A DNA stretch of 21,328 nt, from positions 1 through 21,328 of IMG/VR virus record IMGVR_UViG_3300017749_000166; one strand, written 5' to 3'. Numbering within the stretch: position 1 is the first letter of the stretch; the number at the start of each line of letters is the position of its first letter. Position numbers and translations under genes: made by a program. Of the stretch, positions 3,477-20,734 are shown piece by piece. Below the pieces are notes generated by a model that saw only the letters and a program-made list of their open reading frames with translations, was not told where the DNA came from and searched no databases. The DNA comes from a virus.

Positions 3477-3688
3477 TGGAAAAGAAATATGAACATGGAT
3501 ACGAAGAAGCAAAGACTTCCGGCGGTGCAGTTTATGAACTTGGTGTCAAGGCATCAAAAAATGCCAAAGCAATTAGAAGGATCGCAGAACCACTTATGAA
3601 GAAACACTGGCATGACAAGGTTACAAATTTACATAGAATTTATAGAGTAGCAGAGTATTTGCACCAAAGACAAAAAAGAGGAAAATGA
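3476..3688 (+). CDS. small basic protein, unknown function
   Basis: A 70-residue, lysine/arginine-rich, likely all-helical protein. It starts one base inside the ligase stop (TAATG) with AGGAGAG about 8 nt upstream, so translation follows ligase directly. Two helical halves can be seen, GAVYELGVKASKNAKAIRR and a histidine-rich segment with KKHWHDKV and LHRIYRVAEYLHQRQ. The strong positive charge would allow nucleic-acid binding, but no DNA-binding motif is recognisable. Its stop overlaps the next ATG as ATGA. Unknown function. Confidence 0.75.
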   Translation: MEKKYEHGYEEAKTSGGAVYELGVKASKNAKAIRRIAEPLMKKHWHDKVTNLHRIYRVAEYLHQRQKRGK

Positions 3689-4068
3689 CACAAGATAAAG
3701 CACAAAAAGAAATAGAAGAAAATATTAATCATGTGATTAAAACAAGGATTCAACCTGGAGTTGATGCACATGGTGGTGTTGTGAAACTAGAAAATTTTGA
3801 CATGGAAACAGGAACAGTGACCATGTTGATGAGTGGAGCATGTTCTGGTTGTGCCAGTAGCGCCGCAACACTCAAACAAGGCATTGAAAATATGTTGAAA
3901 CATTACATACCTGAAGTTAAATCTGTACAAGGAGTTGATGATCCTAACTTCAACGATCCGTATTTTAAAAAAGAGCCTAACCCATTGGCACCAACTATGT
4001 CATATGAGGAAATGTTGGATGAATTAGAACAAGTTGAAACAAATGACAAAAAAGAGGAAAATGACTGA
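3685..4068 (+). CDS. NifU C-terminal (Nfu-type) iron-sulfur cluster protein
   Basis: Nfu-type proteins hold and pass [4Fe-4S] clusters to apo-enzymes, with two subunits sharing the cluster through a CxxC motif each. This 127-residue protein has the family core at residues 9-85: the GVDAHGGVVKL segment, then SGACSGCASS with C53 and C56, then LKQGIENMLK and PEVKSVQGVDD. It lacks the N-terminal domain of NfuA and the scaffold domain of full NifU. After the core there is an acidic tail of about 40 residues. It overlaps the upstream stop (ATGA) and has GAGGAAA as ribosome-binding site. A phage copy would support maturation of host or phage Fe-S enzymes during infection. The next gene encodes another cysteine-rich mini-protein, and an A-type carrier lies at 13743. 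Confidence 0.9.
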   Translation: MTQDKAQKEIEENINHVIKTRIQPGVDAHGGVVKLENFDMETGTVTMLMSGACSGCASSAATLKQGIENMLKHYIPEVKSVQGVDDPNFNDPYFKKEPNPLAPTMSYEEMLDELEQVETNDKKEEND

Positions 4069-10424: not shown

Positions 10425-10871
10425 ATGATATATTACAGCACAAAAACATATGGAAATGACAGAGGATTTAGTTGTGCATTTAGACAGCCTAACGCAAGTC
10501 ACAGTCATTGTTCACTAATACATGGTTACAGTTTAGGATTTAAATTTACATTTACATCAGAAAAACTGGATGATAAAAACTGGGTTTATGACTTTGGAAA
10601 TTGTAAATGGATTAAAAAGTTTCTAGAAGACAAATTTGACCACACACTTGCACTAGACAAATCAGATCCGCATTTTGATTATCTTTTTGATATGAAAAAC
10701 AAAGGACTTGCTAATGTCGTTGTAATGGATGGTGTTGGTTGTGAAAAATTTGCAGAACACGTTTATAAATTTGTTGCTCCTGAAGTGGAAAAACAAACAG
10801 ATCAAAGAGTAAGCCTTAAAAGTGTAGAAGTGTTTGAACATGGAGCCAACAGTGCTATATATTCTGCATGA
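10425..10871 (+). CDS. queD: 6-pyruvoyl-tetrahydropterin / 6-carboxy-tetrahydropterin synthase family protein
   Basis: The family converts dihydroneopterin triphosphate in tetrahydropterin or, as QueD, preQ0/queuosine synthesis, using zinc held by three histidines. This 148-residue protein (full family length) has the characteristic HCSLIHGYSLGFKF (residues 28-41), YDFGNCKWIKKFL, FDHTLAL (DH pair), and SVEVFEHGANSAIY near the end. The usual zinc residues differ: the AAH position reads CAF (F19), and HGH reads HGY (Y35). Histidines at 26, 28 and 33 remain, so the metal site may be rearranged or partial. I recall a proteobacterial subgroup with similar SHC...HGYA motifs. No other queuosine gene is in the window. 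It overlaps the glycosyltransferase gene by 4 nt. Confidence 0.8.
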   Translation: MIYYSTKTYGNDRGFSCAFRQPNASHSHCSLIHGYSLGFKFTFTSEKLDDKNWVYDFGNCKWIKKFLEDKFDHTLALDKSDPHFDYLFDMKNKGLANVVVMDGVGCEKFAEHVYKFVAPEVEKQTDQRVSLKSVEVFEHGANSAIYSA

Positions 10872-11575
10872 AGAAATATGTTATTTGTTTAAAACATGGT
10901 AAGAAGTATGGCCCAGAGTATGTGAATACTCTTGCAAAAATGGTCAAAAGAAATTGCACACTTGACTATGAATTTGTTTGCTACACAGAAGATCCAACAG
11001 GAATAGACCTCAACCTAGTAACCATAAGACCTTTGCCCACAGCATACAGAATAGGTGGATGGTGGTTCAAGCCTTTACTTTTTAATCCTGATTCCAATGA
11101 ACGTGGTACGATGTTGTACATAGATTTAGATGTAATAATTTTTAGAAACATTGACAAACTGTTTACACATCTAAAAGATCAATTCCTTGTGCTACGTGAT
11201 TTCAACAGATGGCGTCAAAAAGGTTGGAAGAAATTTAATTCATCTGTGGTGCGTTGGAACACCGGTCAACATCCGCAAATATACAAGAACTTTGTTGCAG
11301 ACACAATGAACATTTCAAGAAGATTTCACGGAGACCAAGATTGGTTGTTTGCACAGGTTAATAAAGACTTTCAATATTTTCCTGATGAATGGATTCAAAG
11401 TTACAAATGGGAAATGAGAGGTATGCCTCCATTAACCAGAGATGCGGCTGGACATAGAAACTTTGTGTCTCCAGGCGTGCCAAAAATAAAACCTGAAACA
11501 TCAATTGCTGTATTTCATGGAGATCCTAATCCTAAAGTTTGTTGTGATCCTTGGTGCAAAGAAAACTGGCGTTGA
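10868..11575 (+). CDS. glycosyltransferase with DxD motif (GT-A fold, GT8-like)
   Basis: A 235-residue cytoplasmic enzyme expected to transfer a sugar from a nucleotide-sugar. It starts MKKYVICLKHGKKYGPEYVNTL, the first strand and helix of a GT-A fold. YIDLDVIIF carries the metal-binding D86-x-D88. NSSVVRWNTGQ is an acceptor-loop region, then GDQDWL at 155-160, then a C-terminal FHGDPNP, where His would bind the diphosphate as in GT8 enzymes. The order and length fit a GT8-like enzyme. It is translated together with the QueD-like gene (ATGA overlap). The acceptor could be phage DNA, virion protein or host surface glycan; I cannot tell. Confidence 0.8.
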   Translation: MKKYVICLKHGKKYGPEYVNTLAKMVKRNCTLDYEFVCYTEDPTGIDLNLVTIRPLPTAYRIGGWWFKPLLFNPDSNERGTMLYIDLDVIIFRNIDKLFTHLKDQFLVLRDFNRWRQKGWKKFNSSVVRWNTGQHPQIYKNFVADTMNISRRFHGDQDWLFAQVNKDFQYFPDEWIQSYKWEMRGMPPLTRDAAGHRNFVSPGVPKIKPETSIAVFHGDPNPKVCCDPWCKENWR

Positions 11576-11600
11576 CGCACACCGAAATATTTGCTATAAT
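11572..11600 (+). promoter_or_regulatory. strong sigma70 promoter with extended -10
   Basis: TTGACG at 11572-11577, 17-bp spacer, TATAAT at 11595-11600 preceded by TGC (extended -10). The -35 overlaps the TGA stop of the glycosyltransferase gene. The predicted +1 is 11606-11607, at the ATG of the UV endonuclease, which has no Shine-Dalgarno. A leaderless transcript is likely. Confidence 0.8.
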
Positions 11601-11605
11601 AAAAT

Positions 11606-12649
11606 ATGATTAGACGTATTGGATTTTGCTGTCAATGGTTTCACCATGATAGAACTCTTAAAAAGAAACAATTAGAAGAAATAGAAAGACCAATGAACAC
11701 ACGTTCAACTACTGTGCGTTGGTTAAATGAACACAAAGACGAAGCAGAAGCAAAACTAGATTTTGTATTCAAACACAACATACAAGGTATTAAAAATTTA
11801 ATCCTTAAAGTTTCAACACTGCCTAAAAGCAGACGTATGTGTAGAATTTCATCTCCCATATTACCGGTGGCAACACAGGCGGACTGGAGATACTATTGGA
11901 CCAAACCCGAGATTATAAAATATTGTGAAAAGCATTTTGCTGAAGCAGGTGACTTGGCAAGATTACACGATGTAAAAGTAAGTTTTCATCCAGGACAATT
12001 CACAGTGTTGGCAAGTGAAACTCCAGACATTGTGGATCGTAGCATAGATGAATTTGAATATCATGTGAACATGGCACGTTGGATGGGATTTGGTAAATCA
12101 TTTCAAGATGGTTGCAAAATTAATGTACACATCTCTGGTAGACAAGGTCCAGAAGGCATTATAAAAGCACTGCCTAGACTGTCGCCTGAAGCAAGAAACT
12201 TGATCACCATTGAGAATGATGAAATGAGTTGGGGACTTGATGCAAGTCTAGAACTAGAAAAACATTGTGCCTTGGTGTTGGACATACATCATCATTGGGT
12301 GCGTACTGGAGAATATCTACAAGCCACAGACGACAGGGTAAAAAGAGTTGTGGACTCATGGCGTGGTGTAAGACCTACCATGCACTATTCTTATTCAAGA
12401 GACGAATGGTTGACTCCTGCTTATCCAGATGGAAAAATGCATGAAGGTTTTCATGACATGGAAACACTTTTATCTAAAGGTTGTAAGAAACAAAAATTGA
12501 GAGCACACAGCGAACGATTACCAAATCGTGCAGTGAATGAATGGGCATTGAGTTTTCTACCGCAACTAGACATACAAGTTGAAGCAAAAATGAAGAATCA
12601 AGCGGCAGAGCAACTCCATAACCAGGCTTTAGAACTAGGATTAGTTTAA
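11606..12649 (+). CDS. uvsE: UV damage endonuclease (UVDE/UvsE family)
   Basis: Cuts DNA 5' to pyrimidine dimers and other lesions, starting repair without glycosylase activity. The 347-residue protein has the family's TIM-barrel signatures in order: IGFCCQWFHHDR at the N-terminus, RISSPILP (from residue 80), SFHPGQFTVLAS (from residue 126), INVHISG, TIENDEMSWG (E203 to E206 area), LVLDIHHHWV, and KLRAHSERLPNRAVNEW near the C-terminus. The His/Asp/Glu residues of these motifs form the metal-ion site. Length is usual for the family. It is driven by its own promoter with the ATG at the predicted +1. A sunlit aquatic phage would gain from such repair. Followed by superoxide dismutase, another damage-related gene. 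Confidence 0.92.
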   Translation: MIRRIGFCCQWFHHDRTLKKKQLEEIERPMNTRSTTVRWLNEHKDEAEAKLDFVFKHNIQGIKNLILKVSTLPKSRRMCRISSPILPVATQADWRYYWTKPEIIKYCEKHFAEAGDLARLHDVKVSFHPGQFTVLASETPDIVDRSIDEFEYHVNMARWMGFGKSFQDGCKINVHISGRQGPEGIIKALPRLSPEARNLITIENDEMSWGLDASLELEKHCALVLDIHHHWVRTGEYLQATDDRVKRVVDSWRGVRPTMHYSYSRDEWLTPAYPDGKMHEGFHDMETLLSKGCKKQKLRAHSERLPNRAVNEWALSFLPQLDIQVEAKMKNQAAEQLHNQALELGLV

Positions 12650-12650
12650 A

Positions 12651-12658
12651 AATAAATA
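12651..12658 (+). promoter_or_regulatory. T4-like late promoter motif
   Basis: AATAAATA, matching NATAAATA, just after the UV endonuclease stop. T4 geometry puts +1 at 12664, one base before the superoxide dismutase ATG at 12665. No Shine-Dalgarno is present. Confidence 0.5.
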
Positions 12659-12664
12659 CATTAT

Positions 12665-13216
12665 ATGAAATATGACCAATTGACAGAAGCGAAGAATCGC
12701 GAAGAAAAACTTGAAGTGGTAAAGTTGCCATACAAATTAACAGAACTATCTCCAGTGTTGTCTAAAAACAATGTGGATTATCATTACAACGTGTTAACAA
12801 AAGCATACGTAAGAAGATTTAATGATAAAGAAGGAGATGCAAATTTTAATTATGGTGGGGCAAAGTTGCACAATCTTTTTTGGAGTCAATTGCAAAAACC
12901 TAAACCAAGTAATAAACCTAGTGGTGCTGTAAAAGAATTAATCAATAAAAACTTTGATTCTTTCGATGCATTTAAAAAAGAAATTTTTAGAATGTCTATG
13001 ACCATTCAAGGTTCGGGTTGGGTGTATTTGGCTAAAAATGGCACAATAAAAACAACGCCAAATCAATCATATAAAACTGATATATTGATGCCAATAGATA
13101 TGTGGGAACATTCTTTTATGGATTACATTCCTGCCAAAGATGCCAAGAAAAAATATATGGATGGCATGATGCGTATTATCAATTGGGACATCATAAATCA
13201 AAGATTAGAATCATAG
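12665..13216 (+). CDS. sod: iron/manganese superoxide dismutase
   Basis: Converts superoxide to oxygen and hydrogen peroxide in the cytoplasm. The 183-residue protein has the family order: VKLPYKLTELSPVLS, then DYHYNVLTKAYV with metal ligand H40 and the gateway Tyr (Y48), then GGAKLHNLFW with ligand H69, then GSGWVYLAK, then IDMWEHSF with ligands D145 and H149, and INWDIINQRL at the end. All four ligands are present. The positions that separate Mn- from Fe-type enzymes look Mn-like: Gly at the position aligned with Gly77 of MnSOD, and Q134 in the TTPNQ segment. The active-site histidine at the HxxxH position is replaced by Leu (L44). It lies behind a late promoter motif. Confidence 0.88.
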   Translation: MKYDQLTEAKNREEKLEVVKLPYKLTELSPVLSKNNVDYHYNVLTKAYVRRFNDKEGDANFNYGGAKLHNLFWSQLQKPKPSNKPSGAVKELINKNFDSFDAFKKEIFRMSMTIQGSGWVYLAKNGTIKTTPNQSYKTDILMPIDMWEHSFMDYIPAKDAKKKYMDGMMRIINWDIINQRLES

Positions 13217-13226
13217 GAGACAAGCA

Positions 13227-13400
13227 ATGATAGATAAAGCACAAAAATGGATTAATGCTAGAATCAAAGAAAGAACAACACTTGATGGTGCTCTTTTAGT
13301 AATAGCAGGTATTTCATTCTTAATATTCAAACCAATAGCAAGTATTGTGGCGTATGGAGCAATTGCCTACGGCGCATGGACTATTTGGAAGTCTGAATAA
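13227..13400 (+). CDS. 57-aa two-span membrane protein
   Basis: A small gene starting at 13227 with AGGAGA and 6 nt spacing, so the start is clear. The N-terminus is basic and amphipathic (KAQKWINARIKERTT), followed by two hydrophobic segments at about 21-34 and 36-52 (GALLVIAGISFLIF; IASIVAYGAIAYGAWTI), ending KSE. It is a small hairpin membrane protein. I have a memory of similar short proteins in T4-like cyanophages, unverified. Its stop lies one base from the stop of the minus-strand gene. A lysis-related or membrane-remodelling role is possible, but unproven. Confidence 0.7.
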   Translation: MIDKAQKWINARIKERTTLDGALLVIAGISFLIFKPIASIVAYGAIAYGAWTIWKSE

Positions 13401-13401
13401 T

Positions 13402-13689
13402 TTACAATTCGTTAATTTTTTTTAAACTCGAGGCGTCCATGTTGAAGATTTTTCTTTGGCGGGCGCCTTGTTCTTGAGCAAACTTTTTAGGATTACACCT
13501 ATTGCACACGTGCTTATAGTAATTGCTCACCCTTTTTTCTTGGATTTGTCCTTTGTGCCTGGTGAACTGATTGTCACAAACATCACACAAAAACAAATAC
13601 AAAGTCCTAGTCCTTTTACAGACGTGTTTTTTGCCCAATTTACTGGTTCTAGTGGAGTGTGATACTTCTGTAAGTTCTTTCAAAAACAT
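13402..13689 (-). CDS. zinc-ribbon-like small protein on the minus strand
   Basis: The only minus-strand gene of the window. The 95-residue basic protein has C35-x2-C38 (FLCDVCDN) and C62-x2-C65 (HVCNRCNP), 23 residues apart, which form a zinc ribbon or treble-clef type site. The N-terminal part (HSTRTSKLGKKHVCKRTRT) is very basic, and so is the tail (KKFAQEQGARQRKIF). Small HNH-type nucleases carry similar C4 sites, but the HNH histidine/asparagine residues are not visible. It may bind DNA or RNA. It has no Shine-Dalgarno; TGTAAATA on its strand (13695-13702) sits 5 nt before the ATG. The open frame, clean zinc motif and fit between neighbours support it over the + strand frames. Confidence 0.75.
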   Translation of the reverse strand: MFLKELTEVSHSTRTSKLGKKHVCKRTRTLYLFLCDVCDNQFTRHKGQIQEKRVSNYYKHVCNRCNPKKFAQEQGARQRKIFNMDASSLKKINEL

Positions 13690-13694
13690 ACTTT

Positions 13695-13702
13695 TATTTA
13701 CA
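13695..13702 (-). promoter_or_regulatory. late-promoter-like motif on the minus strand
   Basis: Read on the minus strand the sequence is TGTAAATA, one mismatch from NATAAATA, with five bases between it and the ATG of the zinc-ribbon gene. The geometry equals that of the + strand late motifs, so a leaderless late transcript is plausible. Confidence 0.35.
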
Positions 13703-13722
13703 TTAGGATTTATGAATTACAC

Positions 13723-13730
13723 CATAAATA
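13723..13730 (+). promoter_or_regulatory. T4-like late promoter motif
   Basis: CATAAATA, matching NATAAATA, in the 53-bp divergent gap between the minus-strand gene and the A-type carrier. Predicted +1 at about 13736 leaves a leader of about 7 nt before the ATG at 13743, too short for a standard Shine-Dalgarno. It would transcribe the carrier and the giant fibre gene together. Confidence 0.5.
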
Positions 13731-13742
13731 CAGATAGCAGAT

Positions 13743-14084
13743 ATGACAGTTTTAACAGTAACCGACAAAGCAAAAGATAAAGTTCAAGAACTTTGTGCTA
13801 AAAATGGCAAATATGCTGTAAGATTAGGTCTTAAAGGCGGTGGTTGTGCAGGCTTCTCATATGATTGGGGATTTGCAGAACAGTCTGAAATAGACAAAGA
13901 AGATGAATTAATAAAGTGCAATGAAGGTAATCTTGTTATAGATACATCTAGTGCATTTTATTTGTTTGGAACGGAACTGGATTATGTTGAAGAAGTTTTT
14001 GGTTCGCATTTTGACATCAAAAATCCAAACACAAAAAGTGCTTGTGGATGTGGCGAAAGCATAAACTTTGATATGAGAGTATAA
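13743..14084 (+). CDS. A-type iron-sulfur carrier (IscA/ErpA/SufA, HesB family)
   Basis: A-type carriers receive Fe-S clusters from a scaffold and pass them to target proteins; the cluster is bound by three cysteines. This 113-residue protein has C35 in the GGGCAGFSY motif and C101 and C103 in SACGCGES, exactly the family set. The rest (LTVTDKAKDKVQEL, LGLKGGG, LVIDTSSAFYLFGTELDYVE) also fits, and the length is normal. It lies behind a late promoter motif and its stop overlaps the ATG of the giant fibre gene by one base, so it is probably co-expressed with the fibre. With the Nfu-type gene at 3685 it gives the phage two Fe-S delivery proteins but no scaffold or cysteine desulfurase in this window. 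Confidence 0.92.
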   Translation: MTVLTVTDKAKDKVQELCAKNGKYAVRLGLKGGGCAGFSYDWGFAEQSEIDKEDELIKCNEGNLVIDTSSAFYLFGTELDYVEEVFGSHFDIKNPNTKSACGCGESINFDMRV

Positions 14085-14090
14085 TGGCAA
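14076..14090 (+). repeat. 15-bp direct repeat, copy 1 (start of giant fibre gene)
   Basis: AGAGTATAATGGCAA, spanning the last codons of the A-type carrier and the first codons of the fibre gene. It is identical to 20726-20740 at the other end of the fibre gene. It encodes RV, stop, and the overlapping MA start at both sites. Confidence 0.8.
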
Positions 14091-17000
14091 AAAATATTAT
14101 TAATGTTGGAATAGAAGGCAATGACGGAACTGGTGATAGTATCAGAGACGCCTTTAGAAAATCCAATGAAAACTTTACAGAACTTTATGCTGTGTTTGGT
14201 CAAGGTGGTCAAATCAGTTTCACAACTTTATCAGACACACCAGACACACTAGGATCAAACAAAGTAGCATCATCAAACGCAGATGGTACTCAACTTTTAA
14301 TGAAAACTATACAGGCTGGTGCAGGTATTGTTGTAGACACATCAAATCAAGACAGAATTACAATTACAAACACAGGTGGTGATGTATCAAGCGATAACAA
14401 TCCAGGTTTAGGTGGCCCGCTTAATGCAAACGGTTTTGCTATTGCAAATGTTGGTCTTGAACAACAAGACGTTTTAGATTACAATGCAGTGCATGGTACT
14501 AACATAACACTAGATGACCTTGTAATTAACAAACAATACGCAGATCAAAATTATATTAAGTCATCCGGCAGTGGTGGAGTTTCAGGACAAATTAGAATAA
14601 GAACTGAACCTGCAAATGGAAATGATTATTCATTAACAATTACAACTTTCCAAAACGGTGACGCAGTTGTTCCTACACACGGATTTGATTCTGGTGCTAA
14701 TGGTTTGCCATTTGTTTATGGCACAACAGGATCACCAGCAGTAAACTTATCTAATCAACAAACAGTTTACATAAGAATAGTAGATGACAACACATTCAGT
14801 TTCCATACAACTCAACAAGAAGCACAAAATGATAACGATGCAACAAGAGTTAAAATTACTGCAAGTGGAGGATCAGGAACACAAACAATCGTAGATGGTG
14901 CGTTTGATTCTAATCTAGCAGGATTCTATTTGAGCACGGAAGCAATGCCAAGAGATTCTATTGTTAGACGTCAAGGTGACACAATGGAAGGAACTTTGTT
15001 CTTAAATGACCACCCAGGTGATTTAGCAGGACAAGGAACTCCAAATTCATCAGATGATTTACAAGCCGCTTCGAAATATTATGTAGACAATACAAGTTAT
15101 GCATCTACTACTAACCTTTTTGTTAGCACAGCAGGTGACGACTCTATGTCAGGTGTACCAGCAGACAAAGTTGGTAGATCAGAAGCATATGCATACGCAA
15201 CAATAAGTGCCGCGGGAAGAAAAGCAGAAGAATTAATTTTAACTTCACCAATTATTCCAGGACCGTATGTACAAACAATTACACACTCTAGTTTCGAAAC
15301 ACCAGCAACTCTTTTAACACAAGGTGTAACCAACAGCAGTGGATTGACAGACGTAAAAGAATTAATTGAATTAAACAAAAATTTTGTAATCAAAGAAGCA
15401 GTTGCCAGTGTGCAAAATCAATTTCCAACTTTTGTTTTTGACGTTGCTATCTGTGAAAGAGATTTAGGATATATTTTAGACGGCATAGTAATTGATGTGT
15501 TGAATAGTATAGATGCAAATGCACAATCAATCATTGCTGGTTATAGATATTACAGTTCAAACAGTGGATTAAAAGCAATTAATCAACAGTCAGCACCTAC
15601 ACTACAAGCAATAGGTTGGGCAAAAACTGTTGTTAATCAAGTAATACAAAACCAAACAGTTGCAACAACTTATCAAAGTGCAGTTGCACAACAATTTGAT
15701 TTCAATAAAACGGTAACAAACGCTTCTGAGATTGCTTCAGTTGGTTCAAAATTCGATATCATCACTGGCATTATACAGAATGGTCCTTTGACTGCACCAG
15801 CAGAATTTGAAGGTAGCACATTTACAATCACTATTGATAATGGCTCACAAGGATATTGTGACCAAGCACAACCTAACAACAAAGATTTATTACCAGGTAA
15901 AGTTATCAGAGGTAAAACTTCTGGTGCATTAGGTAGAATTGTAACCTACACTGTGGGTGGAACATTTGATACTGCAGAAGTTAAATTATTAGAACCATTT
16001 GATTACGACATAGGTGAAGAATTAGAATTTGGAAACTTTGTAAAGAAAACAAACATAGCAATCAGAGTTGAAACTGGAACTTACTTTGAACATTTCCCTA
16101 TCAGATTGCCTGCAAATTGTTCTATCAAAGGAGATGAATTTAGAAGAGTAATCATAAGACCTAAACCAGGTGTGTCACAATCACCTTGGGCAACCACTTT
16201 CTTCTTTAGAGACAGCACATTCGATGGATTAGCATTAATTCCAACAACCAATCCAAATGCTGTAGATTTAATCACGCAAAATAGAAGTTACATTCAAGAC
16301 GAAGTTATTGCCTGGATTGCAGAACAAGTGGCAAACAGTACTGCACCATTCAGTGGTTTTGTTTACAATGCTCAAAAATGTGAACGTGATGTTGGTTTAA
16401 TTTTAGACGCAATCACAAATGATTTAAAATACGGCGGTAATGCTGAAACTTACAGATCGGCTTTTGCATATTGGGAAGGTGCTGTTTCTCAAGTAAACGG
16501 ACAACAGGCACAAACTGCCGCGGCGTTGGATCAAGCAGTTGTGATTGTAAGAGATTACATTTTAACAAATACTGCTTATTCATCTTTACAATCTATAACA
16601 ACACAAATTATTACAGGAACTCCTGGAGAAGCAGGCTCTGGAACAACTGTACAAACATTGATGGGTCAGATTACAACTGTAATTTCAGGTGGACTTTCAT
16701 CATTACCAAATTTAACAGATCCAAGATACGGATATCATTACCTAACAGATCCTACTGATGTAAACAGCACACCTAAGAACAATGATCAGATGGATGGTTT
16801 CTTAATGAACGATGCAACCATTTTAAGAAACATCACAATGCAAGGTCATGGTGGTTTTATGCAGGTGCTTGATCCGGATGGACAAGTTTTAACAAAATCT
16901 CCATACACACAAACAGCATCTTCATTCAGTGCAAGTTTAAACAAACAGGCATTCAGAGGTGGTATGTTTGTAGATGGTTTTTCTGGAAACAGTTTATGTA

Positions 17001-20000
17001 ACGTTATAGGAACAACTAATGCATTTAGAATACAAGTTCAATCAGATCCTGGTCAAGGTTTAAGAATTAGAAGACCACAAACACCTGCACCATTCTTTAT
17101 ACAGGGACAAAGATATCAAATTGATGCTGTAACAAACTACGACAAAGCAAACGGAACAGCAGATTTAATTTTAAACGAAACTTCAAACAGTGGTGTTGGA
17201 TGGGACGGAACATATTCAACTCCATTTACAATTTCAATTCAAACAGCAGGTAATAGATCATTACTTGCAAATGACTACACACAAATAAATGATTTAGGAT
17301 ATGGTTTAGTTGCTACCAACGGTGCATTGTCTGAACAAGTGTCAACTTTCAGTTACTATTGTTACACGGCATATTTTGCAAACAATGGTGGACAAATCAG
17401 ATCATTGAATGGATCAAATGCAAATGGTGTTTATGCACTTGTGGCAGAAGGTAGTGATCCAAATGAAAAAATTGATATCATCACATTGGAAGAACCAATG
17501 GTACAAACAGGTACAATATTTGATGATGGTGCAACATACACAAACGACCAAGATGGATTATTTGTTTACGTTTACGGACTAGAACACATTCCATTACAAG
17601 CAGGTGAAATAGAAATTGATCACGGCGGAGCAACAGGAATCGTAAGATATGAAATTTCAAATGTAGAAAGCACTTCAGCACCTACTCAAGCACATGGTAG
17701 AGATGGAAATGTTTACAAAATAAATTTATCAACAGGTGGAAACAATGACACTTCAACAACAGGATTAAAAACAAATCTATCTGATGGCACAAATGTAACA
17801 ATAAGAGCCAATAGATCATTCGTGTTTGATGACCTATTAGAAATTGCTCCTATCAGACCAAGCACAGCGATTGTGTTTGATGAAAGCACAGCAACAACTT
17901 ATAGATCAATAGCATTCAGTAATCAAGATTCAGTCGGAAACAGTTTAACTGCTACACAGGCTCTGATAACTTTTGACACTCCGTTTGATTATGTTAGATG
18001 TACAGTTAATCAAATTGAGTCACAAAACAACACACACGCAGGCACTGGAACTTCAATGGGTGCTACAATTGGTGACTATGTGATTGCAATCAATAGAATA
18101 ACTGATGTGGCTGACGTTGAAAGATTAAACCGTGGCAATATGATTTTGGCTTGGGATGGTAAAACTCACATTGTACAAAATTACATAGACAGAGGATCTT
18201 ATGCTACAATAGAATTAGCAGATGATTACAACAACAACCAAACACCAATAGGAAACGGAATTCATTCACCAGTTTACAGAGCAGGTGAAACTATAACTTT
18301 AAGAGCAGGTCTAGATGCTGGTGCTCCTGCAAGTTTAACTGTTGAAATTTCTACTTGTAGAGCAACAGGTCATGACTTCTTAGATATTGGTACAGGTGGA
18401 TTTAACACAACAAATTATCCTAATGCAATTTACGGTGCTCCTCAATCACCGAATCAAGCATACGAAGTTTCAGAACGTGGTAAAGGTAGAGTGTTCTGGG
18501 TATCCACTGACCAAGATGGATTCTTTAGAGTAGGAAAATATTTCACAGTTGACCAAGGAACAGGTACAGTTACTTTTGCGGCTTCAATTGCACTTTCTAA
18601 TCTAGATGGAATAGGATTTAAAAGAGGTGTTGTTGTTTCTGAATTCAGTACAGATGATTCAATGGTGGACAATGCATCAGACACAGCACCAACTGAATCT
18701 GCTGTAAGAGGTTATGTTAACAGAAGATTAGGTTGGGATCACAATAATCAATCCATTGCAAATGGAATAGGTGCAGGAGCAGTTGCTAGAGATGGAACGA
18801 CTCCTTTCACAAATGATGTTGGAGCAGGCGGAAACAAATTAATTGATTTAGGTGCACCAACTGTTGGTACAGATGCGGCAAACAAATCATATGTTGACAA
18901 TATATTAGCAGAAAGCGATCAAGTTGAAGACATTAGAAACATTGATACTTCTAATCTTGGTGAGGCTGACATACTTGTATTCAATGGCAAACAAAGAATT
19001 TTTGTAACGAATGTTGTAGGTGGTGCTTTTGCAGACGGTGATACATTCACAGGAAACAATTCAAGTGCAGGTGGAACTATTATAGATGTAGAAGCATTGA
19101 CATTACCAGGTGGCATAGTTTCAACAAGAATTACTTACACACAAGACACAGTTGCAAACTTTAACACAAATGATTTAATTACAACTCCAGGTGGCGTAAG
19201 TGCTCAAGTAATTGATGGTCCTATGAATGAATTAGGAACTGGTATAGAAGTTGCAACATCTGATATTAACATTCATGTAAACAGAACATCTACGGAAACT
19301 GAAATTGATTTCAGAATTAGAGCAGATTCTATTATAAATGCTGATGTGAAAACAGATGCCGCGATTGCTCAAAGCAAATTGGACATGCAGGCGGCTTCTA
19401 CTAGAGCAGATGCTGTCGGTATTACTCAAGCAGAACGTGGACTAGCAAGTTTCAAAGCAACAGAGTTTGATGCAACTAATGGTTGGATAGAATTAAGCAA
19501 CAGCGGTGTGTTGATGAGCAAAATTGAAGTTGTACCTTCTAACACTGCTCTTGCAAACGCAACTGGTAGTACTGCCAATGTAACAGCCACAACTTTTGCA
19601 GACATTATTCAAATTGGTGGCGGTTTACAAGACGCAGATTTCTCAAACACGTTGATACAAGCAGACAACGGCAGTGTATTAGTTAAAACAGGACCAGGTG
19701 CTTATGGTGTAACAGCATTAACACAATCTGGTTCAGCCAATGCAATTAACAAAAATAATTCAGTGGCAAGTCCACTAGGTGGCAACACAGCAACAACTAG
19801 AGTAACCAGTCTTGCAGTAGGCAGTGATAATGTAAACGCAATACTAGATGGTGCAAACTTAAAACTTTACACAGAAGGTGGTGTACTTGCTGTAGACATG
19901 ATTGGTTCAACTGCTAATAATTCTAAAGTTTTATTTGGTGTACAAACAGTTGCAATTGGTTCAACTAAAACAGGTGAGTACAGTGCAAACAATTATGATA

Positions 20001-20734
20001 CTGGAACAACATCAATTATTAATCCTTCATTGGAAGCAGACTACATTTACACAAATGCAATTGAAACAGAAGAAAATGTTGGAACAAATGCAAACTTCTC
20101 AGGTATAGGTTTAGGAGCCAACAGTAACTTTATTAACAATGCAACATTCACAGATGGCAGAATCAGTATGGTTGCAGATGGTGAAGTGGTTGCTGTTGTA
20201 ACAGGAACAACAGGTTCAAACACAGGAGAAATTTTACCAGGAACAAACACAGTTAACATTGGTAGAAATGAAACATCACTGGGTGCAAATGATTTCTTAA
20301 GATTTAACAATGTGTATGCAACAACTTTCAATGGTACAGCAACGCAGGCTCAATATGCTGACTTGGCTGAGAACTATCTTGCAGACAATCAATACGAAGT
20401 AGGAACAGTTTTAATATTTGGTGGAGATGCAGAAGTAACCACAACATCATTAAGAGGCGACACAAGAGTCGCAGGTGTTGTTTCTGAAAATCCAGCACAC
20501 TTGATGAACAGTTCATTACAAGGAGACAATGTTACAGCAGTGGCATTAACAGGAAGAACTCCAATCAAGGTTATTGGTGTAGTACAAAAAGGTGATATGT
20601 TGACAAGTTCAAGCACACAAGGATTTGCAACAAGAACAACTGATCCTAAAGTGGGTACAGTGATAGGTAAAGCATTAGAAAACAAAACAGATGCTGGTGA
20701 AGGTGTCATAGAAGCAGTGGTAGGTAGAGTATAA
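14084..20734 (+). CDS. giant tail-fibre / host-recognition virion protein, 2,216 aa
   Basis: A very long, Gly/Asn/Thr/Ser-rich protein. N-terminus: GNDGTGDSIRDAFRKSNENFTELY, an attachment module shared with the next gene. Visible parts: fibre motifs AASKYYVDN (about 328) and DAANKSYVDN (about 1597); two related blocks containing CERDLGYILD (from 457) and CERDVGLILD (from 766); a beta-helix-like segment with TYFEHFPIRLPANCSIKG (from 666), as in pectate-lyase-like spikes; FWVSTDQDGFFRVGKYFTV (near 1470), common in cyanophage-type fibres; and a C-terminal domain (from about 2080) with TATQAQYADLAENYLAD and the VGTVLIFGG barrel. No signal peptide or membrane helix. It probably forms a trimeric fibre that binds the host. 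Gene starts with weak GAGAG, coupled to the carrier upstream. Confidence 0.88.
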   Translation: MAKNIINVGIEGNDGTGDSIRDAFRKSNENFTELYAVFGQGGQISFTTLSDTPDTLGSNKVASSNADGTQLLMKTIQAGAGIVVDTSNQDRITITNTGGDVSSDNNPGLGGPLNANGFAIANVGLEQQDVLDYNAVHGTNITLDDLVINKQYADQNYIKSSGSGGVSGQIRIRTEPANGNDYSLTITTFQNGDAVVPTHGFDSGANGLPFVYGTTGSPAVNLSNQQTVYIRIVDDNTFSFHTTQQEAQNDNDATRVKITASGGSGTQTIVDGAFDSNLAGFYLSTEAMPRDSIVRRQGDTMEGTLFLNDHPGDLAGQGTPNSSDDLQAASKYYVDNTSYASTTNLFVSTAGDDSMSGVPADKVGRSEAYAYATISAAGRKAEELILTSPIIPGPYVQTITHSSFETPATLLTQGVTNSSGLTDVKELIELNKNFVIKEAVASVQNQFPTFVFDVAICERDLGYILDGIVIDVLNSIDANAQSIIAGYRYYSSNSGLKAINQQSAPTLQAIGWAKTVVNQVIQNQTVATTYQSAVAQQFDFNKTVTNASEIASVGSKFDIITGIIQNGPLTAPAEFEGSTFTITIDNGSQGYCDQAQPNNKDLLPGKVIRGKTSGALGRIVTYTVGGTFDTAEVKLLEPFDYDIGEELEFGNFVKKTNIAIRVETGTYFEHFPIRLPANCSIKGDEFRRVIIRPKPGVSQSPWATTFFFRDSTFDGLALIPTTNPNAVDLITQNRSYIQDEVIAWIAEQVANSTAPFSGFVYNAQKCERDVGLILDAITNDLKYGGNAETYRSAFAYWEGAVSQVNGQQAQTAAALDQAVVIVRDYILTNTAYSSLQSITTQIITGTPGEAGSGTTVQTLMGQITTVISGGLSSLPNLTDPRYGYHYLTDPTDVNSTPKNNDQMDGFLMNDATILRNITMQGHGGFMQVLDPDGQVLTKSPYTQTASSFSASLNKQAFRGGMFVDGFSGNSLCNVIGTTNAFRIQVQSDPGQGLRIRRPQTPAPFFIQGQRYQIDAVTNYDKANGTADLILNETSNSGVGWDGTYSTPFTISIQTAGNRSLLANDYTQINDLGYGLVATNGALSEQVSTFSYYCYTAYFANNGGQIRSLNGSNANGVYALVAEGSDPNEKIDIITLEEPMVQTGTIFDDGATYTNDQDGLFVYVYGLEHIPLQAGEIEIDHGGATGIVRYEISNVESTSAPTQAHGRDGNVYKINLSTGGNNDTSTTGLKTNLSDGTNVTIRANRSFVFDDLLEIAPIRPSTAIVFDESTATTYRSIAFSNQDSVGNSLTATQALITFDTPFDYVRCTVNQIESQNNTHAGTGTSMGATIGDYVIAINRITDVADVERLNRGNMILAWDGKTHIVQNYIDRGSYATIELADDYNNNQTPIGNGIHSPVYRAGETITLRAGLDAGAPASLTVEISTCRATGHDFLDIGTGGFNTTNYPNAIYGAPQSPNQAYEVSERGKGRVFWVSTDQDGFFRVGKYFTVDQGTGTVTFAASIALSNLDGIGFKRGVVVSEFSTDDSMVDNASDTAPTESAVRGYVNRRLGWDHNNQSIANGIGAGAVARDGTTPFTNDVGAGGNKLIDLGAPTVGTDAANKSYVDNILAESDQVEDIRNIDTSNLGEADILVFNGKQRIFVTNVVGGAFADGDTFTGNNSSAGGTIIDVEALTLPGGIVSTRITYTQDTVANFNTNDLITTPGGVSAQVIDGPMNELGTGIEVATSDINIHVNRTSTETEIDFRIRADSIINADVKTDAAIAQSKLDMQAASTRADAVGITQAERGLASFKATEFDATNGWIELSNSGVLMSKIEVVPSNTALANATGSTANVTATTFADIIQIGGGLQDADFSNTLIQADNGSVLVKTGPGAYGVTALTQSGSANAINKNNSVASPLGGNTATTRVTSLAVGSDNVNAILDGANLKLYTEGGVLAVDMIGSTANNSKVLFGVQTVAIGSTKTGEYSANNYDTGTTSIINPSLEADYIYTNAIETEENVGTNANFSGIGLGANSNFINNATFTDGRISMVADGEVVAVVTGTTGSNTGEILPGTNTVNIGRNETSLGANDFLRFNNVYATTFNGTATQAQYADLAENYLADNQYEVGTVLIFGGDAEVTTTSLRGDTRVAGVVSENPAHLMNSSLQGDNVTAVALTGRTPIKVIGVVQKGDMLTSSSTQGFATRTTDPKVGTVIGKALENKTDAGEGVIEAVVGRV

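Follow-up and report, generated by a model that had tools for sequence, protein, structure and literature searches.

A phage clade of Fe/Mn superoxide dismutases with an altered active site and a capsid-targeting-like leader

The sod gene and its phage neighbourhood

The window, the whole 21,328-nt stretch of viral DNA that was analysed, carries a superoxide dismutase (SOD) gene embedded among phage genes, with the following features:

11606–12649, + strand: UvdE-type UV-damage endonuclease (Pfam PF03851, E=7e-35), directly upstream of SOD
12651–12658, + strand: T4-type late promoter motif AATAAATA, beginning 14 nt ahead of the sod ATG
12665–13216, + strand: Fe/Mn SOD coding sequence of a phage-specific clade, 183 aa (Pfam, phmmer, alignment, tree, AlphaFold2, dN/dS)
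12665–12688, + strand: N-terminal leader MKYDQLTE, aa 1–8, predicted capsid-targeting sequence with a predicted cut between E8 and A9
12782–12814, + strand: codons H40–R50, with metal ligand H40, L44 (the His30 position) and gateway Y48
13227–13400, + strand: small hydrophobic protein, 57 aa, shortly 3' of the SOD stop
13743–14084, + strand: IscA/A-type Fe-S carrier (Pfam PF01521, E=3.4e-19), a recurrent downstream neighbour, no leader
14084–20734, + strand: giant tail-fibre protein (phrog_9851, E=3.6e-50), giving phage context

The sod reading frame starts with ATG and runs for 183 aa without stops. Its product matches Pfam Sod_Fe_C over all profile positions (1–102 of 102; E=3e-20, 72.6 bits against a curated cut-off of 20.9) and Sod_Fe_N (E=2.4e-9, 38 bits against a cut-off of 27), and phmmer comparison with solved Fe/Mn SODs gave E-values as low as 2.9e-22. 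The AlphaFold2 model is confident (mean pLDDT 93.3, pTM 0.88), and among the PDB matches listed all were Fe/Mn SODs, at a TM-score of about 0.8 (TMq). Compared with close relatives the gene shows a dN/dS of 0.024–0.105 and is under strong purifying selection. A sequence-only reading had proposed a complete Fe/Mn SOD on a phage genome, and the intact frame, both Pfam halves and the SOD fold confirm it.

Relatives of the window SOD are encoded on 71 viral contigs, at up to 95% identity, and homologues occur in isolates, namely the Pseudomonas jumbo phages PA5oct, MIJ3, Callisto, Paride and others (36% identity) and Vibrio phage 2.275.O (37%). A search of 84,980 species genomes returned ordinary SODs of about 30% identity as the best cellular matches, and no close bacterial homologue, none exceeding 37% on its best segment. 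Phage isolates gave no DNA-level match to window positions 11000–15000, and the Vibrio-type SOD had no relatives among the viral contigs. The phylogenetic comparison with bacterial SODs that the sequence-only reading had called for groups 53 of 53 phage SODs on the same side of a 100/99-supported branch in a maximum-likelihood tree; the exact place of the two isolate sequences is unsure because both form long branches. A phage origin is thus supported by the viral contigs, the separate branch and the isolate homologues. A bacterial region misassembled onto a viral contig, an idea that draws on SOD being a common bacterial gene family with matches in 12 of 14 control genomes, was rejected as extremely improbable given these viral and isolate relatives, the separate branch, the low cellular identity and a gene order that recurs between contigs.

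This order runs UvdE, SOD, 57-aa membrane protein, IscA-like protein, giant tail fibre. UvdE is a conserved SOD neighbour in 49 of 70 SOD loci (the window copy carries no leader), the family of the 57-aa hydrophobic protein is found in 30 of 70, and 33 loci carry the IscA-like gene, in most of them about 0.5–0.8 kb downstream of SOD. The suggestion that the enzyme protects Fe-S proteins receives circumstantial support from this IscA-like gene, while the companion suggestion, protection of light-stressed host cells, found no support in this analysis.

Several further genes of the region deserve mention. A NifU-like protein (window 3685–4068) accompanies the IscA-like one (13743–14084), placing two Fe-S assembly proteins on one phage fragment, and a 6-pyruvoyl tetrahydropterin synthase/QueD-like protein is encoded at 10425–10871; pterin genes also lie just upstream of SOD in PA5oct and Callisto (folE, plus QueD in PA5oct). 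Between SOD and IscA, on the minus strand, lies a 95-aa zinc-ribbon-like ORF (13402–13689) with a weak HNH endonuclease match (E 0.0096), possibly the relic of a homing endonuclease; an antisense ORF family occupies this place in 50 of 70 SOD loci.

Active site and predicted activity

Window residues H40, H69, D145, H149, Y48 and L44 correspond to E. coli SodA H26, H81, D167, H171, Y34 and H30, and all six are invariant in a 22-sequence phage alignment, which bears out the earlier assignment of four metal ligands, a gateway tyrosine and a leucine in place of the second-shell histidine. Across 53 distinct phage SODs the set of three His and one Asp metal ligands is complete in every sequence, and Tyr34, Trp169 and Glu170 are invariant. 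Leucine replaces His30 in 53/53 of them vs 1/68 cellular SODs, a comparison set skewed to Actinomycetota because of the search pattern. Other substitutions in the phage enzymes are His27 to Tyr/Phe, Lys29 to Val/Ile/Thr/Gln and His31 to Ser/Thr/Tyr, and the alpha-hairpin, between N53 and N62, falls short of that of E. coli SodA by about 26 residues. Among the cellular SODs, the single one that has Leu at His30, from a Cellulosilyticum MAG (L198), retains Tyr-Tyr at 173–174.

A low-barrier hydrogen bond links His30 of human MnSOD to Tyr166 of the other subunit, the equivalent of E. coli Tyr174 (PMC8024262). Counted by ungapped spacing from the His ligand, the Tyr174 position holds Met in PA5oct-like SODs, Ser in the L211 SOD and Val in that of 2.275.O. 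The marine clade has a two-residue insertion that leaves the register uncertain (M/S/T, or Y154, which MAFFT aligns there). Judging from the alignments, this cross-dimer partner of His30 has apparently been lost in phage SODs; for the marine clade the loss is provisional, because the MAFFT gap adjoins the Tyr174 column, and is argued from the ungapped spacing in the PA5oct-like, L211 and 2.275.O proteins. The His30–Tyr174 cross-dimer proton relay, which is conserved for activity but is no part of the ligand set, was not found in the phage SODs, whose membership of the Fe/Mn SOD family stands regardless.

The phage SOD is probably an active but altered enzyme. Of two human MnSOD variants, H30V loses nearly all activity (k1 of about 0.005 vs 1.5 nM-1 s-1), while H30N/Y166F keeps some measurable activity and releases product faster (PMC9208312). 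L44 may lower activity, but the strict purifying selection together with the invariant ligands argues against a dead enzyme.

The proposal that the metal-type positions look Mn-like held in part: the window SOD has G77 (its G65) and the C-terminal Gln146 (its Q134), but Pro takes the place of the Mn-type Gly at the metal-tuning position XD-2, as in 51/53 phage SODs. The water-coordinating residue is a C-terminal Gln in the marine clade and His in PA5oct-like and Vibrio SODs; of characterised C-terminal-Gln SODs, 78% prefer Mn (PMC10172142). Because of the XD-2 proline, the predicted metal preference is uncertain, leaning towards Mn.

Late expression and the N-terminal leader

The late promoter motif noticed in the sequence-only reading is real: AATAAATA stands at 12651–12658, and NATAAATA occurs within 50 nt upstream of 31/43 distinct SOD genes vs 13.5% of other ORFs, its first base usually 12–14 nt before the SOD ATG, which supports late expression. 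The motif ends 5–7 nt before the ATG, both in the window (12651–12665) and in sister loci. With T4 late-promoter geometry, transcription would presumably start at or next to the sod ATG. A Shine-Dalgarno-like motif was found in 0/30 SOD genes with a close promoter vs 6/12 without (p=0.0002). Since the predicted start lies near the ATG and the close promoter comes without a Shine-Dalgarno-like motif, the late mRNA of this SOD clade is likely leaderless. The distribution of NATAAATA across other ORFs is bimodal: it peaks at −13 (47 ORFs), with a second, broad group between −25 and −36. Together with the missing Shine-Dalgarno-like motif, this points to leaderless late mRNAs as a class in these phages.

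In almost all phage SODs the conserved LPY is preceded by a short extension of variable sequence that ends in phi-x-E, a feature that the sequence-only reading had missed. The Glu (E8 in the window) reaches at least 90% conservation when the alignment is not anchored on that residue. Examples, with a slash at the predicted cut, are MKYDQLTE/AK in the window, MRQYIDIVE/TK, MQDMKQWIQLFE/AK and MKIRQIFE/AV; the SOD of a PA5oct-type viral contig has MTDIRQTLDLLE/AK, and that of PA5oct itself (EST35_0261) MNDSIKKYISIAE/AA. The SOD of Vibrio phage 2.275.O showed no leader in the 22-sequence alignment. In the AlphaFold2 model, residues 2–10 of the window SOD form a separate helix of low pLDDT outside the SOD fold. 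A signal peptide was rejected by inspection, the leader having no hydrophobic core.

The prohead protease gp21 of phage T4 cleaves after L/I-x-E, and T4 internal proteins carry propeptides of 10–19 residues that serve as capsid-targeting sequences (CTS), proposed as a device by which T4-like phages package various proteins (PMC9026906). The end of the window leader, L-T-E/A, fits this pattern of gp21 sites. A gp21 gene was found in each of the five large SOD genomes examined, which are three contigs of 243–316 kb, Callisto and Vibrio phage 2.275.O; the window is a fragment of 21 kb. On the three contigs gp23 is encoded as well, with KHLAE/N or KYLAE/A near the T4 site FLTE/AE. Applied to 160 T4 proteins, a profile of the SOD leaders ranked the core proteins gp67, gp22 and gp68 at 4, 5 and 13, and the internal proteins IPI/II/III only at 34, 78 and 87; this ranking lends only partial support to any likeness with the T4 CTS (MKTYQEFIAE).

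The same leader type recurs on other phage proteins. Among the non-SOD families on SOD contigs and genomes whose N-termini fit M[KR]phi..phi.X, Glu occupies X in 16/75 vs a background of 5.2% (p=1.4e-6), and in 0/5 on cellular contigs. Taken alone, G001, G002 and Callisto each show only weak enrichment, and generic profile or regular-expression searches of the three large genomes gave modest enrichment (Fisher p 0.003–0.03). Leader-bearing examples include MKLTQLFESKK (788 aa), MRFAELVEN, MRLTKLFEA and MKIKEITEA. Two bearers are linked to the head: a 66–73-aa protein encoded between the portal gp20 and gp21, which starts MRYKELKEA (G003), MKLFEFFEA (G002) or MKINDIITEG (Callisto), and a PHROG 'virion structural protein' starting MKTFTQYLSEA, close to T4 MKTYQEFIAEA. 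In L019 and L029 the SOD leader MKIRQ[LI]FE is matched by MHLRQIFE on an adjacent, unrelated cytidyltransferase. These cytidyltransferase-like genes adjoining SOD (L019 6869–7792, L029 6873–7757) may encode another virion enzyme.

The L033 SOD carries a fused basic module at its C-terminus (GKSRPGRVKRAGASCKGS...), and modules of this type also terminate leader-bearing proteins in L062, L070 and L071. The module, GKSRPGRVKRAGASCKGSVTSLR..MYHWCANMKSG, is basic, contains Cys and His and sits at the C-terminus of several unrelated phage proteins; one SOD is among its carriers, as is a 66-aa stand-alone leader protein. The module loci are:

L033, 3300–4340
L062, 9276–10076
L070, 66–266
L071, 4330–4986
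L067, 2506–3069

The GenBank record of PA5oct (MK797984) carries an 'ESI-MS/MS' note on about 90 of about 445 CDSs, which we read as referring to the phage particle. Proteins so noted include the portal, gp21, the major head protein and the tail sheath, and the counterparts of both head-linked proteins are MS-detected structural proteins: the leader-bearing head-operon protein (82921–83142) and the homologue of the MKTFTQYLSEA protein (126689–127291). The SOD, EST35_0261 (172979–173527), also bears the note, labelled 'hypothetical protein' and not 'structural', and the genes immediately around it (heat-shock protein, ClpS, hypotheticals) have none. Carry-over of the SOD into the sample is possible, because the list is not purely structural: the note also marks the soluble enzymes ribonucleotide reductase, thymidylate synthase, DNA ligase and ClpP, as well as FtsH. 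Leader-like starts were more frequent among MS-detected PA5oct proteins than among the rest (11/89 vs 21/384, p=0.023), as was a second leader pattern (9/89 vs 14/384, p=0.016); the remaining two of four patterns were not significant (p 0.08 and 0.26). Of other isolates, MIJ3 has four structural proteins described in its paper, all taken from major bands only, and the Paride paper covers proteomics of the host but not of the virion.

A putative virion enzyme, its alternatives and known systems

We regard it as reasonably probable that the SOD is made late, targeted into the capsid, trimmed and co-injected with the DNA. According to this model, sod would be transcribed late in infection, and the amphipathic leader MKYDQLTE would direct its product into the prohead core, where a T4-type gp21 would cut behind L-T-E and so free the SOD of its leader. 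The mature enzyme would be sealed in the capsid together with the DNA and enter the next host on ejection, clearing superoxide in the first minutes of infection and shielding the incoming DNA as well as Fe-S and radical enzymes. A SOD packaged in the virion would act at the entry stage of the following infection, replacing or adding to a role late in the ongoing one. Cleavage, packaging, injection and dismutase activity of the window SOD are all steps that we infer, and the step from leader to packaging is argued by analogy with T4. The fuller reading, to which we give about even chances, is of a phage Fe/Mn SOD lineage with a cleavable capsid-targeting propeptide, injected as a scavenger, with an active site rearranged to do without the His30–Tyr174 relay, and forming one of a larger set of enzymes that share the leader type in jumbo T4-like phages.

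An ordinary late cytosolic auxiliary enzyme, protecting the infected cell and its Fe-S enzymes and with the leader a functionless tail, is a less likely account, though one compatible with the late promoter, the adjacent IscA-like and UvdE genes and the other cytosolic enzymes on the PA5oct list; it leaves unexplained why phi-x-E persists in an otherwise variable leader, why virion proteins have the same leader type and why the L033 SOD is fused to its module. We consider it doubtful that a catalytically weak SOD fold is packaged as a metal carrier or as a structural or DNA-associated internal protein. The uniform H30-to-L change, the apparent loss of Tyr174, the low k1 of human H30V and the basic module in L033 would fit such a role, but the four ligands, Y34, E170 and W169 are invariant, Gln/His146 is kept, dN/dS is 0.02–0.1, and human H30N/Y166F is still measurably active.

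If the packaging model holds, an oxidative burst at phage entry becomes a testable feature of infection, and the leader allows virion-cargo enzymes of jumbo phages to be proposed from sequence alone. The clade is also a natural experiment on the proton relay of MnSOD, in which His30, and apparently its partner, was lost while ligands and Tyr34 were retained under strong selection.

Phage Fe/Mn SODs are already annotated in databases (sodB of Callisto and MIJ3, 2.275.O, BFVD A0A6J5L7W0); a literature search found no paper on them, and the SodFM family papers searched do not mention viruses or phages. What is new here is the clade-wide active-site signature and the capsid-targeting-like leader. 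The best viral fold match, A0A6J5L7W0 from an uncultured Caudovirales phage (47% identity, 182 aa), is known by database annotation only. A second BFVD entry from an uncultured Caudovirales phage, A0A6J5L953, is a 'superoxide dismutase' of 501 aa in which about 300 extra residues accompany the SOD.

With the SodFM family (Pfam PF00081/PF02777; SodFM1–5, Sendra et al. 2023) the phage SODs have in common the fold, the four ligands, gateway Tyr34, the Glu170-type dimer bridge residue and a C-terminal Gln (marine clade) or His (PA5oct-like, Vibrio, L211). They depart from it in His30 to Leu, the apparent Tyr174 to Met/Ser/Thr/Val, Pro at XD-2, the N-terminal leader and the hairpin shortened relative to SodA. 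The SODs of PA5oct, MIJ3, Callisto (Arenbergviridae) and Vibrio phage 2.275.O, 35–37% identical to that of the window, share H30L, the PA5oct-like ones also the phi-x-E leader, and Callisto and 2.275.O encode a T4-type gp21; PA5oct-like and Vibrio SODs differ in having His, not Gln, at 146, the leader is absent from the Vibrio copy, and the isolate neighbours (ClpS and a small HSP; topoisomerase subunits) are unlike those in the window.

T4 IPI/II/III likewise have a short N-terminal propeptide ending in L/I-x-E, and a T4-type gp21 is present in related SOD phages; here, however, the cargo would be a metabolic enzyme, the leader sequence differs from the T4 CTS, and processing is predicted. 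Chlorovirus PBCV-1 provides a precedent for the biology, if not for the family: its Cu/Zn SOD (A245R), the product of a late gene, is packaged in the virion and thought to reduce superoxide during infection (PMC7019647). It too is a viral SOD from a late gene, but with an unrelated Cu/Zn fold, a eukaryotic algal host and packaging proven by experiment, where that of the phage SOD is inferred. If our reading is true, phages would use an Fe/Mn SOD much as chloroviruses use a Cu/Zn SOD, as an antioxidant defence carried in the particle.
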